Origin: Mariniphaga sediminis
Lineage (GTDB): Bacteria; Bacteroidota; Bacteroidia; Bacteroidales; Prolixibacteraceae
Reading direction: 5' to 3'
Assembly: GCF_003573545.1 (NCBI RefSeq)
Contig: NZ_QWET01000008.1
Location: 186,001-250,000 of the forward strand
Length of the DNA: 64,000 nucleotides
In this document: in pieces, positions 57,751-64,000 of the stretch
Layout of the letters: each line of letters opens with the position of its first letter
How positions within the stretch are numbered: position 1 is the first letter of the stretch
Translations under genes and position numbers: made by a program
The notes under the pieces: model-generated
Database searches by the model: none
Told to the model about the DNA's origin: nothing
The model's input: the letters and a program-made list of their open reading frames with translations, nothing else

Positions 57751-59589
57751 TTATTTAACCTTAACACCAAAGCTGGAATCAATCTTAATAAATGGCAAAA
57801 CAAAGAATATTGGCAGGGTGCATATCATTACCCAGACAAAAAAACTTTGGTAACCAATAATCTCTTGCAGCCAACCGCTTAACATTCCCGGGACCATCAT
57901 GCCCAATGCCATAAAACCGGTGGTTATTGCATAATGTGCTGTTTTGTGCTTCCCGTCAGAAATGTATATGGAGAAAAGCATATAAGCCGTAAAACCAAAG
58001 CCATAACCAAACTGCTCAATCACAACTGCGGCCGATATCCACCAAAGCGAGTGAGGAGTAAACCAAGATAGAAACAAGTAACATAAATTAGGAAGGTTAA
58101 TCGCCAAAGCCATCCACCAAAGCCAGTATTTTAAACCTTTGCGAGAGGCAACAATGCCGCCTAAAATTCCACCTGTTGTCAAAGATATCATCCCTGCCGT
58201 TCCGTAAACCAACCCCAGGTCGCCGGTAGTAATTCCAAGCCCTCCTGCTTCGCGGGCATCCAGCAAAAACGGAGATGCCATTTTTACCAACTGCGATTCA
58301 GCTAATCGGTATAATAACAAGAAAAGCATTATCGATAAAATGTTCTTTTTCCGGAAAAAAGCAGCAAAAGTTTCAAAGAATTCATCAAGTACACTTTTGC
58401 CTTTTGTTTTATTGGAAGTATCGGCAACAGGACGAGGTAAAAAAAAGCGGTGATACAAAAAGAACAACGCAAACATTCCTGCAATACAAACAAATACGAT
58501 TGACCAGGCAATTTTCAAATTTCCCGAACGCCCTACAAATGTTGTTTGTGTAACTTTTTTCAACTTCGAATCCAGTTGAACCAAAGCAAAAGCAGGTTTA
58601 TCCCAGTTACTTTTGTTAAACTCATAACGATAGGTTTTTACTAATTTTATACTTGCGTCTCCTTTGTCGTAACCAAAATTCAATACCACTTCCTCACCCC
58701 CTTCGGGCCGTTTTGAAAGTTGGATTGGAATAATAGCCATATTTCCGACTTGACTGCGACGCTGAGTTTCTTCTTTGTTAAATTTTTCTTTTAGAGTGGC
58801 TTTTAAAGGAGAAGCAACATTCTGGCTCCACCAGCCTGCTCCCTTTGTTGTAACAGGCATTTCGCCGGTATAAAACTTATTCAGGATATTCCAGTCATCT
58901 ACTTTCTTTAAAAGTTTAGCTGCTTCGTTTTGTGAGATTAGCCCAATAGGAACTTTTACCTCTTTTTCAGATATAAAATACATTTCTCCCGATTCATTCA
59001 ATTGCCTGTATTCTTCGGGATTAAATATAATTTCTTGTACCGGAATATTGTGAGAAGTTACCTCTACCTGCAGTGGTGCCAAACCTGTAGCTGTTTCCAA
59101 TGCTCCGGCAAGAATTACAAGTAACCCCTGACCGGTTAGCATTGCAACCCGATAAAAAGTGCTTCGAATGCCCACAAAAAAAGCCTGGTCCCCTTGTGAA
59201 AGCCCTAACATATAAAAACCATCCGCAGCAATATCGTGGGTAGCCGAGCTAAATGCCAGCAACCAAAAAAATGCTAACGTGTATTGGAAAAAGTTGTGAA
59301 CCGGAATTGTAAATGCCACTCCTGCCAAGCCAGCCCCAATCACCAACTGCATTATCACAATCCAAAATCGTTTTGTTTTAAAAATGTCAACAAGGGGGCT
59401 CCACAGCGGCTTTATTACCCAGGGCAAATACAACCAGCTGGTGTACAAAGCAATGTCGGTATTCGAAATTCCCAAACGTTTGTACATTATAACCGATAAT
59501 GTCATAACGATGATGTACGGGATTCCTTCAGCAAAATAAAGTGTAGGTACCCAAAACCAGGGATTGCGACTAGTCCTATTATTGTTCAT
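57751..59589 (-). CDS. MFS transporter with large inserted soluble domain (AmpG-like)
   Basis: This 612-aa inner-membrane protein has N-terminal helices (PWFWVPTLYFAEGIPYIIVM, YLPWVIKPLWSPLVDIF) that recall the AmpG/acetyl-CoA-transporter branch. Between the first and second halves lies an insertion of about 200 residues (about 175-375, TGLAPLQVEVTSHNIPVQEI to WSIVFVCIAG) that is soluble and strand-rich (EEVVLNFGYDKGDASIKLV). The second half (about 420-612) resumes transmembrane helices. AmpG proteins import muropeptides; this one could take up a sugar or muropeptide, but the substrate is unproven. It is the last gene of a five-gene operon. Confidence 0.82.
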   Translation of the reverse strand: MNNNRTSRNPWFWVPTLYFAEGIPYIIVMTLSVIMYKRLGISNTDIALYTSWLYLPWVIKPLWSPLVDIFKTKRFWIVIMQLVIGAGLAGVAFTIPVHNFFQYTLAFFWLLAFSSATHDIAADGFYMLGLSQGDQAFFVGIRSTFYRVAMLTGQGLLVILAGALETATGLAPLQVEVTSHNIPVQEIIFNPEEYRQLNESGEMYFISEKEVKVPIGLISQNEAAKLLKKVDDWNILNKFYTGEMPVTTKGAGWWSQNVASPLKATLKEKFNKEETQRRSQVGNMAIIPIQLSKRPEGGEEVVLNFGYDKGDASIKLVKTYRYEFNKSNWDKPAFALVQLDSKLKKVTQTTFVGRSGNLKIAWSIVFVCIAGMFALFFLYHRFFLPRPVADTSNKTKGKSVLDEFFETFAAFFRKKNILSIMLFLLLYRLAESQLVKMASPFLLDAREAGGLGITTGDLGLVYGTAGMISLTTGGILGGIVASRKGLKYWLWWMALAINLPNLCYLFLSWFTPHSLWWISAAVVIEQFGYGFGFTAYMLFSIYISDGKHKTAHYAITTGFMALGMMVPGMLSGWLQEIIGYQSFFVWVMICTLPIFFVLPFIKIDSSFGVKVK

Positions 59590-59620
59590 TTCTATCTGTT
59601 GGCTTGTTCTGTATTATTTT

Positions 59621-60604
59621 TTATGGTAGTCGTTCAAAAGCATATCCTTTATCCTTTAACCCTTCGATTATCTCCTTCAAGCGGAAATACAATTTGTCGG
59701 TTCTTGACTTTTCTGTTCCCATGTGCAATAATATAATTGCCCCGTTTAAACCTTTCTCCTTTTCGAAACGAAGCAAAGCATCAATCAATTCGTCTGATGA
59801 CATATAGTTTTCCATATCAGGAGTTGTATAATCGGCATTTGTTCGTACTCCTGAAGTAAAATTCACCACATATACCCCCAAGGCTTCAGACCATTCTACA
59901 ATCTTCTCGTTATACCATTCATACGGAGGCATAAACCAGACAGCATCTTGCCAACCAACACCCAACTCACTCAAGAGCAAATAGTTATTTTCAAGATCTT
60001 TTTTAAAGGTTTCACGACTCACCAATAATGAATCTCGTTTTTGCCAATCACAATAAAGAAGGTGTTTATCTGAATGAGGCCCAACATAATGACCTGCGGC
60101 AATGATCTTTCTGATACTCGGTTGAAACGTTGAATCTCTTAAAAAATCTCCGGTTAAAAAGAAAGATGCTTTTACCTCGTTTTCATTAAGTGTTTTAAGA
60201 ATATGGTCTGCTCCCTCAGCTTTATCATGAGCTGTGAATGCCAAATAAATATTTTTTTCTTCCGGATTTATTCGTTGAATTGCACCTTGTTTGTCTTTCT
60301 CAAACCTGTTTTCAGGAATTCTTTCTAACTTGTCCATGCCTGACAAATAAAAGATCGACCCAGTTGGTTCGTTGGCAGAAGAGTCTCCCAAATAAATGTG
60401 TTTCAAACCAGGTTTTATACAATCCGCAAAGGATTCATGTTCCTTTGCCCAACAGGCCTGTCCCGGATTTTCAAAAGGATAAAACGGATAACGAATGGCA
60501 AGACCTGTTGCTATCCGTAAGTTGACTTGAACTACACTATTTTGCGCAAATAAAACAGAATTCAGCAATAAAAACAGTATTGTGAAGATCAATTTGGTTT
60601 GCAT
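59621..60604 (-). CDS. Exported polysaccharide deacetylase (NodB-homology)
   Basis: The 327-aa protein has a signal peptide (MQTKLIFTILFLLLNSVLFA). After an N-terminal domain of about 110 residues (VNLRIATGLAIRYPFYPFEN) comes a NodB-like barrel. Motif 1 is a variant, YLAFTAHDKAEGADHIL, with a single aspartate instead of the usual TFDDG. The metal-binding motif 2 is normal, HSDKH (H177, H181). Later motifs are FMPPYEWYN and GAIILLHMG. It probably removes acetyl groups from N-acetylated sugars in the periplasm. Its place in the operon suggests the same glycan handled by the transferase and MFS proteins. Confidence 0.85.
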   Translation of the reverse strand: MQTKLIFTILFLLLNSVLFAQNSVVQVNLRIATGLAIRYPFYPFENPGQACWAKEHESFADCIKPGLKHIYLGDSSANEPTGSIFYLSGMDKLERIPENRFEKDKQGAIQRINPEEKNIYLAFTAHDKAEGADHILKTLNENEVKASFFLTGDFLRDSTFQPSIRKIIAAGHYVGPHSDKHLLYCDWQKRDSLLVSRETFKKDLENNYLLLSELGVGWQDAVWFMPPYEWYNEKIVEWSEALGVYVVNFTSGVRTNADYTTPDMENYMSSDELIDALLRFEKEKGLNGAIILLHMGTEKSRTDKLYFRLKEIIEGLKDKGYAFERLP

Positions 60605-60639
60605 ATTCGATTTCGTTTTATGAGGTTTATTCCTAATAT

Positions 60640-61560
60640 TTAAATTTTTGGCGTAGTTAATTTCTTTTCATATCTCCAAAATACACGTGCAACTTTTGCA
60701 TTAGCCTGGTGGGCATAAAATGGGATCGGCCCAACCCAGGGGATGATGGATTTTTCCAGTCCTTCATTTTTCATATCCTGTAAACAAAGCTTAAGTAAAA
60801 CGCCCCCGATTCCCTTGCCCCGCATATCGTTGTGTGTTAACATGGGGCCAAACCAGCCAGTCCCTTTGTTATTGGCATTATGTGCCGCAAAAGCCAGCAC
60901 CTTCCCGTTTAACCGCGCAATGTGCAGCGATGGAGGACTTGATTCTATTGCGCGGTCAACCTCGTATTGCCAAAGGTGCCAATCGGTGCCAAGTAGCTCG
61001 GTGATTTCAGCCCGGTCAGCTTCTGTTGCTCTTGAAACCTCAATTTGCTGTGCTTTTAACTCTTCAATTTTTGTTTGTTCTGACCAGTTTTGATGTTGCA
61101 GGTCTATATCAAGGTTGGAGGTATCTCCGTTTCGTACAAACCCCATCCTTTCGGCAAAACAAACTGCCGCCGTGTAGCGCGGGTCTATTCCGGGCATAAA
61201 ATAGTTAAGCGGGACATCGTAAATACGAACGGCATCAACTTTATTTCTTTCAAAATAGTCTTCAAGCTGCAAATACATTGCCCTGGCAATTCCCTGTTTC
61301 CGGCTTTCTTTTTCAACAGCCATCAGTTTAATGTATCCGTAACGTACGCCTCGCACATTGCGGTAAACACCTTGCATAAACCCTGCAACACGACCCTCCT
61401 TTTGTGTAACGAAAGTCGATTTCGGGTTCCAGCCCGGATCACCAGTGAGTTTTTCCTCAAGCACTTCCTCTGAAATGAAATCAAATTCCATATTGTTTTG
61501 AAGCAGCTTTAAGACTTGCTGAAAATCGTTACTTCGATAATTCCTTATTTCCACAACCAC
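60640..61560 (-). CDS. Tandem GNAT-domain acetyltransferase
   Basis: The 306-aa soluble protein contains two GNAT domains. The first (about 1-150) has MAVEKESRKQGIARAMYLQL. The second (about 165-300) has the acetyl-CoA loop NDMRGKGIGGVLLKLCLQDM. One half of such pairs is often inactive; both loops here keep the Q/R-x-x-G-x-G/A pattern reasonably well. The acceptor is unknown. An amino sugar is a reasonable guess because a glycosyltransferase, a GalT-like protein and a deacetylase are in the same operon (gaps of 25-35 bp). Confidence 0.82.
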   Translation of the reverse strand: MVVEIRNYRSNDFQQVLKLLQNNMEFDFISEEVLEEKLTGDPGWNPKSTFVTQKEGRVAGFMQGVYRNVRGVRYGYIKLMAVEKESRKQGIARAMYLQLEDYFERNKVDAVRIYDVPLNYFMPGIDPRYTAAVCFAERMGFVRNGDTSNLDIDLQHQNWSEQTKIEELKAQQIEVSRATEADRAEITELLGTDWHLWQYEVDRAIESSPPSLHIARLNGKVLAFAAHNANNKGTGWFGPMLTHNDMRGKGIGGVLLKLCLQDMKNEGLEKSIIPWVGPIPFYAHQANAKVARVFWRYEKKLTTPKI

Positions 61561-61592
61561 TTATATGTCAGCTCCTTTTACTGAAGAAAAAG

Positions 61593-62579
61593 TTATTTTA
61601 TTCTACTTACCAAATCATCAAACTTCTCGTCTGACCAAAGCACCTGTCTCAAAATATCCTCAATATCGTTTTTCCCGATTTTATTAAAATCCTTTTCAAG
61701 CGGAGTAACTAAAACACCGCCCATATCAACCGATGCAGGGCTTAAAAGAATGTTTGCCTCTCCTCCGGCTGAATATTGCCACGGACGATGCAATGCACGG
61801 GGAAAGATCAAAATCCGCCACTGTTTTTCTGCAAACCAGGCCAACATATTCATCATCGGTTCTTCTTTTACAACCGCCGGTTTATTCATTGCCTGGTAAA
61901 TTCCTTCAAAGCAGGTACTAAGAGCCGTTTTGTTGCTTGCTGTTAAAAACAGGAAATTCCTCAGTCCGTCTTTTATCGCTGAAACCTCGACATCGCCATT
62001 ACTGAATGTATCCCCGTATTGTCCTTTCAAGGTTTCTAGCTCATTCTCAACAGGCATAAAGCCATTGTTTCCGGCTTGAAAATGAAAGTGGTCGGGAGCA
62101 GAAGCGCCACACTTTGGCCCATTATAAAAAAGCGTAAATCCTTCCATTGCCTGCGCCAAAGCAAGCATGCTTTCAAAGTTCCCTTTTATACGTTGCGGGA
62201 TATGCGCAAAAGCCGCTACCGTAAAATGTTCAGGGAAAATCGGAAACGGATTAACAAGCACTCCATAATGGCCAAATTTTACACTGCGCTGTTCTTTCGG
62301 GCGGTTTTCTGTACAAAGAAAACATGGTCGCGCGTCAATGGACTTTTTATCTATGTTGGCAGCCGACGATACAATGCGCCCCGGATTAAACTGCACTTTT
62401 ATGGTAACCCGATCAAAAACGAACTCGCGAATTTTCACACTGGCCAGGCCAGCAAAATTCTTTCCGGCAAGTTCCCATTCTGATTTTTGTCTAGTTAAAA
62501 GTTCTTTTATTTCATCTGAAATTGAATTCATTAACCCGGTATATTTAAATAGTTCATCGCTTAACTCCGATCTCTCCAA
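61593..62579 (-). CDS. DUF4922 protein, GalT-like member of the HIT superfamily
   Basis: The 328-aa soluble protein shows FNPGRIVSSAANIDK, a C-x-x-C-like zinc knuckle element (RPCFLCTENRPKEQ) and VNPFPIFPEHFTVAAFAHIP. The catalytic loop APDHFHFQAG gives H164-x-H166-x-Q168, the form used by galactose-1-phosphate uridylyltransferase and by nucleotide-sugar phosphorylases such as VTC2, where the middle histidine is the nucleophile. It may therefore interconvert a nucleotide sugar and a sugar-1-phosphate. The natural substrate is not known. It lies 25 bp after the glycosyltransferase gene in the operon. Confidence 0.8.
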   Translation of the reverse strand: MERSELSDELFKYTGLMNSISDEIKELLTRQKSEWELAGKNFAGLASVKIREFVFDRVTIKVQFNPGRIVSSAANIDKKSIDARPCFLCTENRPKEQRSVKFGHYGVLVNPFPIFPEHFTVAAFAHIPQRIKGNFESMLALAQAMEGFTLFYNGPKCGASAPDHFHFQAGNNGFMPVENELETLKGQYGDTFSNGDVEVSAIKDGLRNFLFLTASNKTALSTCFEGIYQAMNKPAVVKEEPMMNMLAWFAEKQWRILIFPRALHRPWQYSAGGEANILLSPASVDMGGVLVTPLEKDFNKIGKNDIEDILRQVLWSDEKFDDLVSRIK

Positions 62580-62604
62580 ACGTCAGACTGGGCAAAGCGA
62601 AGGT

Positions 62605-64000
62605 TTATATCACCTGCTTATTCTGCTTCTGACGCACTTTCAATTCAATCGTTCGAATCCTGTCTTTATAGGTATTATGCGTATTCATTTTTACAATATC
62701 CAAAGCAGCATCGGAATTATCCGTCCACCGGCGACAGAGATAAATATTATCGTAAATACGGCCAATCTTATAGTTTCGCGAAATAGCCAAACCAACGGCA
62801 TAATCCTCGCCATAGCTGGTATTCGGAATTTTCACATCGCGAAGAACCGGGGTATAAAATGCACGGGGTGCTCCCAACCCATTAATGCGCAAGGCATTAT
62901 TTTTACCGTTACCGGGAGTCCATTCTTTGTGATCGATAATACCCGGAGGGATTTCCTGCAAATCAAAATTCACCAACTGGTAAGTTCCCACAACCATAGC
63001 ACATTTTTCCTTCTCGAAAACGTCAACCACTTTTTGTAAAGTAGTTTCGTCTTTGTAGATATCGTCGCTGTCTAACTGCATGCTAATCATTCCACAGCGT
63101 GAATCATGTATCGCCAAATTCCAGCACCCGCCAATTCCCAAATCCTGACGAATCGGAACAATATGTATAACCCGATCATCTTTTTCAACAATTGATTTTA
63201 TAATCCCGGTGGTTTTATCTGTAGAATGATTGTCGACCACAATCAGGTTAAAATCAAAATCTGTTTTCTGTATCAGCACCGATTCCATGGCATCGGCAAT
63301 TGTTTTTTCTCGGTTACGAACCGGAATTATTACTGAAAGTTTTTTATCAAAATCAGATGGCTTTAGTTCAACAGGAGTAAAATCCGGACTCAGCCAGGCA
63401 CCAACATCTTTTAAATGTTCGGTTACGGCCTGCTCCATTTCAACCTGCATCTGGCGTTTTTTGGGGTCAATGTAATCGAAAACTTTCTGCCCGGTTTTGC
63501 GGGTATCTGTTTCATCAACGGTGTACAGGTATTCGGGTATACGGAATAAATCGCCTTGTTGAGCTACTTTTAAACGCAGAGTATACAAACCGGCGTACTC
63601 AAAATCCAGTTTCATGTTTTTAACGGCTGCCCGAAGTGCCTCCGCCTTGTACAGCACCAGCGGACCAAAATCAAAATCATCGCGCAAACTGCCTTCCTGG
63701 TAATCAATTACCGGGTGTGTTGCCAATTTCCCTTCTTTAACCTCGTAATAATCGGTATAAACCTTCACTGCACCGGTTGACTCAGCAACTTCAAGCATGC
63801 GTTCCATGGCGAATTGGCCAAGTTTTACCGACGTAACTTTTGTTAGCAACAACACATAATCCACCTCTTCAGAAGCTTCTGCAATGCGCTTTACTACCGA
63901 TGTACCCGTTAATGTTTCAAACGAAAAAGCCCGGGCCTTTTCTCCTGCTTCAGCAACCAACTTTTTGGGAAGGAAAATATGCTCAACCGAAGAATTTGCC
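62605..64000 (-). CDS. Two-domain family 2 glycosyltransferase, 5' end cut by the window
   Basis: The frame is open to the window edge (the first visible residues are ANSSVEHIFLPKKLVAEAGE), so the N-terminus lies outside. The first, incomplete half (about 150-200 residues visible) has GT-A-like text (VDYVLLLTKVTSVKLGQFAM, DDFDFGPLVLYKAEALRAA). The second half is a clear GT2 domain: KLSVIIPVRNREKTIADAME, LIVVDNHSTDKT, the DxD-type metal site in ISMQLDSDDIYKDE, and GEDYAVGLAISR. It probably builds a glycan or glycolipid. It is the first visible gene of the operon whose next member is the GalT-like DUF4922 protein. Confidence 0.85.
   Translation of the reverse strand, partial: ANSSVEHIFLPKKLVAEAGEKARAFSFETLTGTSVVKRIAEASEEVDYVLLLTKVTSVKLGQFAMERMLEVAESTGAVKVYTDYYEVKEGKLATHPVIDYQEGSLRDDFDFGPLVLYKAEALRAAVKNMKLDFEYAGLYTLRLKVAQQGDLFRIPEYLYTVDETDTRKTGQKVFDYIDPKKRQMQVEMEQAVTEHLKDVGAWLSPDFTPVELKPSDFDKKLSVIIPVRNREKTIADAMESVLIQKTDFDFNLIVVDNHSTDKTTGIIKSIVEKDDRVIHIVPIRQDLGIGGCWNLAIHDSRCGMISMQLDSDDIYKDETTLQKVVDVFEKEKCAMVVGTYQLVNFDLQEIPPGIIDHKEWTPGNGKNNALRINGLGAPRAFYTPVLRDVKIPNTSYGEDYAVGLAISRNYKIGRIYDNIYLCRRWTDNSDAALDIVKMNTHNTYKDRIRTIELKVRQKQNKQVI

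Follow-up and report, generated by a model that had tools for sequence, protein, structure and literature searches.

At the end of a 64,000-nucleotide stretch of DNA from Mariniphaga sediminis (contig NZ_QWET01000008.1, positions 186,001 to 250,000), referred to here as the window, lies a five-gene operon on the minus strand that encodes, among other proteins, a tandem glycosyltransferase (GT) and a member of the DUF4922 family. The operon is part of a Bacteroidota peptidoglycan-recycling cluster that straddles the end of the window and represents a variant kin to the ampG-murTKQ operon of Tannerella forsythia. GT and DUF4922 form a conserved pair in this phylum and may act in place of cytosolic NagZ.

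Organization of the locus

The first gene of the operon encodes GT (62605..64000, extending past the window), a protein of 488-512 amino acids (aa) with two GT-A domains, the second of which belongs to GT2 (PF00535, E = 1.4e-22). Its likely ATG start lies at window position 64071 (L003:10072), with an alternative at 64143. The genes that follow encode a DUF4922 protein with a HIT/GalT-Apa fold (61593..62579, 328 aa; PF16269, E = 6e-62), a tandem GNAT acetyltransferase with a GTG start (60640..61560, 306 aa; PF00583 in two stretches), a polysaccharide deacetylase resembling PdaB and PdaA (59621..60604, 327 aa; PF01522, E = 2.8e-14) and an AmpG-family transporter of the major facilitator superfamily (MFS) (57751..59589, 612 aa; TIGR00901 match and hydrophobic segments), all on the minus strand. 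The DUF4922 reading frame opens with a TTG; within 90 bases of this start, the sole ATG is found at codon 17, and its use would enlarge the gap to GT from 25 to 73 base pairs (bp). The five genes are separated by 31, 35, 32 and 25 bp, counted from the transporter gene to the GT gene, and this spacing suggests that they are co-transcribed. The original prediction, made from the letters of the window, had described a five-gene operon with gaps of 25-35 bp, and both its layout and its domain calls agree with our results: all five proteins have Pfam matches above the respective cut-offs (DUF4922, GT2 for the second half of GT, GNAT, Polysacc_deac_1 and MFS_1).

About 0.37 kilobases (kb) further on, past base 64000, a divergent operon on the opposite strand comprises genes for a kinase, MurQ and NamZ. 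The start of GT, the first gene of its operon, and this divergent operon both lie beyond the window and were not visible to the original prediction. Its MurQ exceeds the cut-off of PRK05441 and that of the subfamily model NF003915 (361 bits versus 168), while falling narrowly below the stricter TIGR00274 (299.3 versus 302). Both Pfam halves of NamZ score above their cut-offs (PF07075, 285 bits; PF20732, 137 bits). The kinase stays below the cut-off of the MurK/NagK model NF046058 (23 bits versus 370), and a relative of it in locus L236 lies above that of BcrAD_BadFG. Downstream (3') of NamZ, we noticed a 433-residue protein (L003:13393-14694) without a Pfam or NCBIfam match. Given that an AmpG-family transporter, MurQ and NamZ come together at this locus, its setting is that of peptidoglycan recycling. 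This result sustains the amino-sugar and transport theme that had been proposed for the operon, but not the statement that its genes match no named pathway, because, in addition to these three proteins, the published T. forsythia operon shows a corresponding gene order. A biosynthetic amino-sugar cluster was dropped as the first choice after the kinase, murQ and namZ genes had been found beyond base 64000.

Conserved residues and predicted structures of GT and DUF4922

Among 40 DUF4922 sequences, residues C86, H126, H164 and H166 are invariant, and C89 and Q168 are conserved in at least 90 percent. H164, H166 and Q168 make up the H-x-H-x-Q loop noted in the original prediction, and C86, C89, H126 and H164 presumably constitute a GalT-like zinc site. 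The nearest solved fold to the AlphaFold2 model of the window protein (predicted local distance difference test (pLDDT) score 91.6) is the yeast diadenosine tetraphosphate (Ap4A) phosphorylase Apa2 (Z 21.8, root-mean-square deviation (rmsd) 3.4, 268 residues), followed at Z 8-10 by GalT, ADP-glucose phosphorylase and a DUF4931 protein. Its HxHxQ loop and its fold thus make DUF4922 a member of the HIT/GalT-Apa superfamily. It has both features in common with Apa1/Apa2, GalT and the GDP-hexose phosphorylases but shows 11-16 percent identity to them in structural alignments. In the available part of a paper on the plant GDP-L-galactose phosphorylase, this enzyme and DUF4922 are both placed in the CDD superfamily cl14728 (PMC9871823).

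The second half of GT is a GT2 domain according to Pfam (PF00535, 80.8 bits versus 23.3), a family whose hallmarks are a DXD-type motif and a catalytic ED; in 29 sequences, this domain invariantly contains DSDD (D335-D338), GED (E423, D424) and RRW. The first half has no Pfam match, but the AlphaFold2 model (pLDDT 90.1) aligns over both halves to K4CP, a chondroitin polymerase with two domains (Z 25.8, 388 residues, rmsd 22). Judged by eye across the 29 sequences, the residue expected to be the catalytic base looks variable in the first domain, which therefore may not be catalytic. The second half also resembles heparosan synthase 2 and the UDP-N-acetylglucosamine (UDP-GlcNAc) enzymes TarP and TarS (Z 19-23), in a VIA-align match list that is dominated by the second domain and barely tests the first. 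GT thus shares the tandem GT-A architecture of K4CP and heparosan synthase 2, with an intact second domain, but differs from them in the placement of its domains. Hydrophobic N-termini are infrequent in both members of the pair (1/51 for GT, 1/61 for DUF4922).

Occurrence and genomic neighborhood of the pair

We surveyed 296 genomes spread over the phylum, scoring GT as present at E 1e-60 and AmpG-family proteins at E 1e-20. DUF4922 was detected in 41 genomes and GT in 40; the two are common to 40 of them, and GT never occurs alone (Fisher's exact test, p = 7e-49). The remaining genome (G156), in which no protein qualified as GT at this threshold, is counted with the 41. The strictness of the pairing supports the earlier view that DUF4922, with its substrate unassigned, is the interesting part of the operon. 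An AmpG-family transporter is present in 41/41 genomes with DUF4922 versus 49/255 others (p = 2e-25).

The physical linkage of the two genes was analyzed in 40 DUF4922 loci from this draw, using 10-kb neighborhoods in which clusters of neighbors were defined with a simple open-reading-frame picker and named by eye. GT and DUF4922 lie at most 10 kb apart in 30 of them, and nine of the ten genomes whose loci have no GT within this distance carry one elsewhere. In one genome, both are naturally fused into a single protein of 826 aa (L074:8083-10563); a second GT of this genome sits in an AmpG operon without adjacent DUF4922 (L236). A second set of 80 named loci represents the best 80 of 584 relatives and is therefore biased towards close kin, with many loci ending at contig ends; the closest of these relatives come from Draconibacterium (68 percent) and a metagenome-assembled genome of the Prolixibacteraceae (55 percent). 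GT is found in 76 of these loci, AmpG in 62, SpoIID in 59, the kinase in 44, NamZ in 38 and MurQ in 35, and GT is encoded on the same strand, no more than 1.2 kb upstream of DUF4922, in 61 of the 71 loci with sufficient sequence. At least one recycling gene is close by in 39 of the 45 named loci that have at least 9 kb on either side. Among the more distant phylum-wide loci, 12/40 have relatives of AmpG, NamZ, the kinase or MurQ within 10 kb. The pair is also found in common gut genera, including B. fragilis and other Bacteroides.

Scattering of the genes in relatives had been named as an observation that would speak against a common system. The core pair is not scattered, whereas two other genes of the operon are optional members, with the deacetylase present in 12/80 and the tandem GNAT in 3/80 named loci. 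A tandem GNAT gene directly follows DUF4922 also in L081, L094 and L148. The order in L094 is GT, DUF4922, GNAT, SpoIID, deacetylase, AmpG, and the window operon therefore looks like this arrangement minus a lost SpoIID gene.

Further contexts came to light in this survey. At distant loci such as L070-L072, as judged by eye, the pair adjoins an RlpA-like protein and a set comprising a histidine kinase, a STAS protein and a response regulator, and not recycling genes. The window genome (5.8 Mb) has a second DUF4922 gene (L005:8177-9259, 38 percent identical) next to a gene for a GHL10 protein (L005:6432-7979, PF02638), which we take to belong to the family of E. coli DigH. The available part of the corresponding study describes DigH as a hydrolase of denuded glycans (PMC12288456).

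Complementary absences of classical recycling enzymes

AnmK, which is present in 207 of the 296 genomes, is missing in 23/41 genomes with DUF4922 versus 0/49 AmpG genomes without it. Ten of these 49, all of genus g7, were omitted from the counts of MurQ and NagZ-like GH3 proteins. Since none of the remaining 80 genomes contains a protein above the cut-off of the strict NagZ model NF003740, "NagZ-like GH3" denotes matches with E <=1e-20. Such proteins are missing altogether in 11/41 genomes with DUF4922 versus 0/39 others. To classify the remaining copies, we considered the N-termini of GH3 proteins from 27 of the 30 matching DUF4922 genomes (all but G066, G200 and G243) and from 17 of the 39 others, applying an export rule based on a 12-residue hydrophobicity window (>2.0) rather than a signal-peptide program. 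The 38 assessed DUF4922 genomes comprise 11 without a NagZ-like GH3, 22 with export-type copies only and five with a cytosolic-type copy (G074, G148, G216, G223 and G263). By comparison, cytosolic-type copies occur in 14 of the 17 sampled others (p = 1e-6), a lower bound because selected rather than all GH3 matches were inspected in the latter. For G140 and G240, the open frame preceding the match was the basis for scoring the protein as exported, and G074, which has one unclear copy without an ATG, was scored as cytosolic. In two genomes without DUF4922 (G182 and G194), a cytosolic-type GH3 gene lies ~0.25-0.35 kb from ampG.

Among the 41 DUF4922 genomes, every one that lacks a NagZ-like GH3 or MurQ also lacks AnmK; the absence of MurQ was defined as no match of at least 290 bits, weaker SIS-domain matches being present in all 80 genomes. 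Four genomes (G009, G019, G188 and G294) have none of the three enzymes and retain AmpG, GT, DUF4922 and a long form of SpoIID. MurU was set aside as a sink for N-acetylmuramic acid (MurNAc): 0/41 genomes pass the cut-off of the model, and the control gave a signal in all 14 well-known genomes. These results allow no more than the weak statement that each of the eight MurQ-less genomes has a 232-251-aa protein that reaches at least 115 bits. The window genome has AnmK, MurQ and a single NagZ-like GH3 match, which has an export-type N-terminus.

A long form of SpoIID without signal peptide

SpoIID is found in 39/41 genomes with DUF4922 versus 40/255 others, and all 39 have a longer SpoIID domain (with match spans of at least 336 bases, whereas those of genomes without DUF4922 do not exceed 303). 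All 23 AnmK-less DUF4922 genomes contain this long form, and 16 genomes have both proteins. The window genome and G223 are the only ones of the 41 without any SpoIID match, and both have AnmK; for the window operon, SpoIID was ruled out on this basis after two candidates had been scored. Of 56 SpoIID copies encoded next to DUF4922 at the named loci, one has a hydrophobic N-terminus. The same measure yields 51/52 for NamZ, 10/10 for the deacetylases and 16/19 for short-type SpoIID proteins (19 of 20 were readable), so that the long form differs from the short type in this respect and is predicted to be cytosolic. Like SpoIID lytic transglycosylases, the operon copies of relatives (the window has none) have the catalytic Glu119 (56/56), and the B. 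ihuae protein (L092:10936-12250) matches PDB 4rwr (E = 7e-17).

A second draw of 117 genomes from the window's own order, which shared the window genome and G230 with the first and in which "long" denotes a span of at least 327 bases, gave a similar picture. Long SpoIID occurs in 32 of these genomes, 28 of which have no AnmK, versus 12 genomes without AnmK among the other 85; conversely, 36 of the 37 genomes with only short SpoIID have AnmK (p = 1e-13). A swap is visible within one family, in which G353 has long SpoIID and no AnmK, and the window genome (G000) has AnmK and no SpoIID. Its near-exclusive distribution with AnmK possibly makes long SpoIID the more striking of the two findings, although it is absent from the window genome.

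Phylogenetic tests

In a RecA phylogeny covering 80 AmpG genomes, AnmK undergoes at least 13 changes and the GT-DUF4922 pair six. Under a model without regain, there are 14 losses of AnmK, all of which fall on DUF4922 lineages, which account for 54 percent of the tree length (0.54^14, ~2e-4). At the family level, AnmK-less members are found in 7/9 families with the pair versus 0/11 families without it (p = 0.0005; one family is in both groups). The phylogenetic support for an association is good, though not event by event.

Transporter, deacetylase and acetyltransferase

The window MFS protein matches the AmpG family model TIGR00901 with E = 1.3e-50 (172 bits), below its cut-off of 350 bits, and the match falls into two stretches that flank a long insert; we therefore name it an AmpG-family protein rather than AmpG. 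About 180 aa (residues ~175-355) between its two homologous halves are devoid of strongly hydrophobic segments, and similar full-length AmpG-family matches exist in at least 12 other genomes. According to the available parts of two studies, AmpG of T. forsythia is functional, and transport of GlcNAc-anhydro-MurNAc (GlcNAc-anhMurNAc) is known only for this relative (PMC5388701, PMC7670621).

The deacetylase matches the PdaB model TIGR02764 (E = 2.7e-20, 73 bits versus 237) and the PdaA model (65.5 bits versus 298) below both equivalog cut-offs. It is probably exported, judging from the hydrophobic N-termini of all ten relatives mentioned above. At the position of the TFDD motif that is usual in polysaccharide deacetylases, it carries TAHD, possibly indicating an unusual catalytic base, and its HSDKH motif is retained.

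Discussion

Our results place the GT-DUF4922 pair of M. sediminis in a peptidoglycan-recycling locus and probably assign it a role downstream of AmpG. The grounds for this view are observed gene content, co-occurrence, domain fusion, predicted folds, signal-peptide differences and complementary absences, and we infer the substrate, direction and nucleotide of the pair. In the explanation that we favor, AmpG would import peptide-poor disaccharides (GlcNAc-anhMurNAc and GlcNAc-MurNAc) into the cytosol, where GT and DUF4922 would act on them as a two-enzyme unit in NagZ's place. The inverting GT2 domain would work in reverse, transferring the beta-GlcNAc residue onto a nucleoside diphosphate (NDP), and DUF4922 would phosphorolyze the resulting NDP-GlcNAc via a nucleotidyl-histidine, yielding GlcNAc-1-phosphate and returning the NDP. 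As an inverting GT2 reaction onto NDP would be followed by an Apa/GalT-type phosphorolysis, the pair could close a cycle whose net result is phosphorolysis; a precedent for a reversed glycosyltransferase is sucrose synthase. The leftover anhydro-sugar would pass to AnmK in the window genome; many relatives instead have a SpoIID-type enzyme, devoid of a signal peptide, that seems to open or transfer the anhydro ring. The neighboring kinase, MurQ and NamZ would complete the use of MurNAc, and the deacetylase and tandem GNAT might strip N-acetyl groups from these fragments and add them back. Because the window genome has AnmK, no long SpoIID and only an export-type NagZ-like protein, the splitting of the beta-GlcNAc bond is the step without an evident enzyme, and GT and DUF4922 remain to fill it. 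We see an even chance that the pair replaces cytosolic NagZ, and similarly balanced prospects for the explanation as a whole, that is, a variant recycling locus with GT-DUF4922 at the NagZ step. The exact phosphorolytic mechanism is a tentative proposal that falls short of this level.

Several observations weigh against this interpretation. Ordinary glycosyltransferases favor synthesis, and the nearest fold of DUF4922 is a dinucleotide phosphorylase rather than an NDP-sugar enzyme. The cytosolic-type GH3 proteins retained in 5/38 DUF4922 genomes include one, in G223, that is encoded directly beside DUF4922, and the AmpG operon of G230 has a GT without adjacent DUF4922, with the sole DUF4922 of this genome fused to a second GT elsewhere. 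The absence of NagZ-like GH3 only in conjunction with that of AnmK fits a loss of the whole classical route, so that the NagZ step is not singled out, and the absence of MurQ (8/41 versus 2/39) is not significant (p = 0.09). If regains are allowed, only six AnmK losses are left, and the branch-length test gives p = 0.02; an independent-pairs test of AnmK against GT-DUF4922 is uninformative (p = 1), with absences clustering by lineage, because the AnmK changes fall inside DUF4922 clades. In T. forsythia, free anhMurNAc supports only poor growth, as stated in the available part of the study (PMC7670621). Finally, 28 of the 40 phylum-wide loci have no relative of AmpG, NamZ, the kinase or MurQ within 10 kb, although seven of these 28 do have a SpoIID cluster nearby. 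Since AmpG is nevertheless present in every DUF4922 genome, the link with AmpG is general at the level of the genome but not at that of the operon.

The loci without recycling neighbors, together with GT4-like and RlpA-like genes seen by eye beside the pair in some of them, would suit a role in the biosynthesis of a surface glycan or in protein glycosylation, unrelated to recycling and merely sharing the ampG promoter. We judge this improbable, given that AmpG relatives accompany DUF4922 even when the genes are far apart and that hydrophobic N-termini are infrequent in the pair. It is also conceivable that the pair works in the forward direction, with DUF4922 making or exchanging an NDP-sugar from recycled sugar-1-phosphate in the manner of GalT and GT loading it onto a muropeptide fragment or another soluble acceptor, for instance to provide long SpoIID with a substrate. 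The conserved GalT-type HxHxQ and Cys/His residues of DUF4922, the intact GT2 motifs and the similarity of the GT fold to polymerizing two-domain transferases would agree with such salvage-coupled synthesis, and strict pairing and fusion are compatible with either direction. By itself, however, it leaves the frequent absence of NagZ-like proteins and AnmK alongside the pair unexplained, and we consider it unlikely, if somewhat less so than unrelated glycan biosynthesis. For the same reason, namely that the presence of the pair accompanies the absence of classical enzymes, the original idea that the operon builds an amino-sugar compound has become the weaker reading.

Its fold, with Apa2 nearest by far, and the fact that the fusion protein exceeds the cut-off of Ap4A_phos_N (PF19327; 25.8 bits versus 23.1, with the window protein at 15.5) might identify DUF4922 as an Ap4A phosphorylase or as an enzyme that clears stray NDP-sugars to aid GT or the cell. 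A housekeeping enzyme of this kind would not be expected to be restricted to genomes with one particular GT, as it is in all but one case, and we therefore regard this assignment as highly unlikely. Least probable of all, and very remote in our estimate, is an association that reflects only which genes a few lineages have inherited, without functional meaning. The outcome of the independent-pairs test and the small number of changes of the pair on the RecA tree are in line with it, but the pairing also holds where the two genes are unlinked, and a fusion exists.

The interpretation that the pair acts at the NagZ step can be extended to an undescribed cytosolic route in Bacteroidota and their relatives, in which a split glycoside phosphorylase stands in for NagZ and a cytosolic SpoIID protein for AnmK. 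This broader scheme is speculative and, in our view, rather doubtful; if true, GlcNAc-anhMurNAc would be dismantled without glycosidic hydrolysis and without expenditure of ATP on the anhydro ring. Cell-wall fragments released in the gut, where common genera carry the pair, are immune signals. Irrespective of the exact chemistry, DUF4922 gains a bacterial pathway context. In the literature searched, from which subscription papers were mostly absent, DUF4922 is named only in two papers, both on plants, Tanf_08350, 08355 and 08360 are named only in the paper that named the T. forsythia operon, and no cytosolic SpoIID transglycosylase of Bacteroidetes was found.

Peptidoglycan recycling as such, AmpG, MurQ, NamZ and the T. 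forsythia operon are already known. The E. coli pathway proceeds through AmpG, NagZ, AmpD, AnmK and MurQ. The window genome has an AmpG-family importer, AnmK and MurQ in common with it but differs in that its only NagZ-like GH3 match is of the export type, and we know of no counterpart of GT and DUF4922 in the E. coli pathway. The closest known system is the T. forsythia operon Tanf_08345-08385, for which the available part of the original report lists xanthan lyase, gtf, gtf, lytB, ampG, ybbC, murT, murK and murQ on one transcript (PMC5388701). A corresponding order, with genes for a metallophosphatase, GT, DUF4922, SpoIID, AmpG, NamZ, a MurT-like protein, the kinase and MurQ, occurs at the B. 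ihuae locus L092 and at several further loci of Bacteroides, suggesting from their position that the two gtf genes of T. forsythia encode GT and DUF4922. According to the accessible part of a later study, T. forsythia AmpG takes up GlcNAc-MurNAc and GlcNAc-anhMurNAc, mostly free of peptide, and the organism grows on GlcNAc-anhMurNAc without possessing AnmK; its authors route MurNAc via AmgK/MurU or MurK/MurQ and state that the use of anhMurNAc without AnmK is unexplored (PMC7670621). The import of peptide-free disaccharides reported for this species calls for two cytosolic steps, the splitting of the beta-GlcNAc bond and the opening of the anhydro ring. With GT, DUF4922 and long SpoIID, there are now three candidate proteins for the use of anhMurNAc in AnmK-less species, which makes the question directly testable. 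Compared with the T. forsythia operon, the window locus is without SpoIID (lytB), and no MurT-like gene was seen there; in turn, it has a tandem GNAT, a deacetylase and a kinase-murQ-namZ operon that is divergently arranged.

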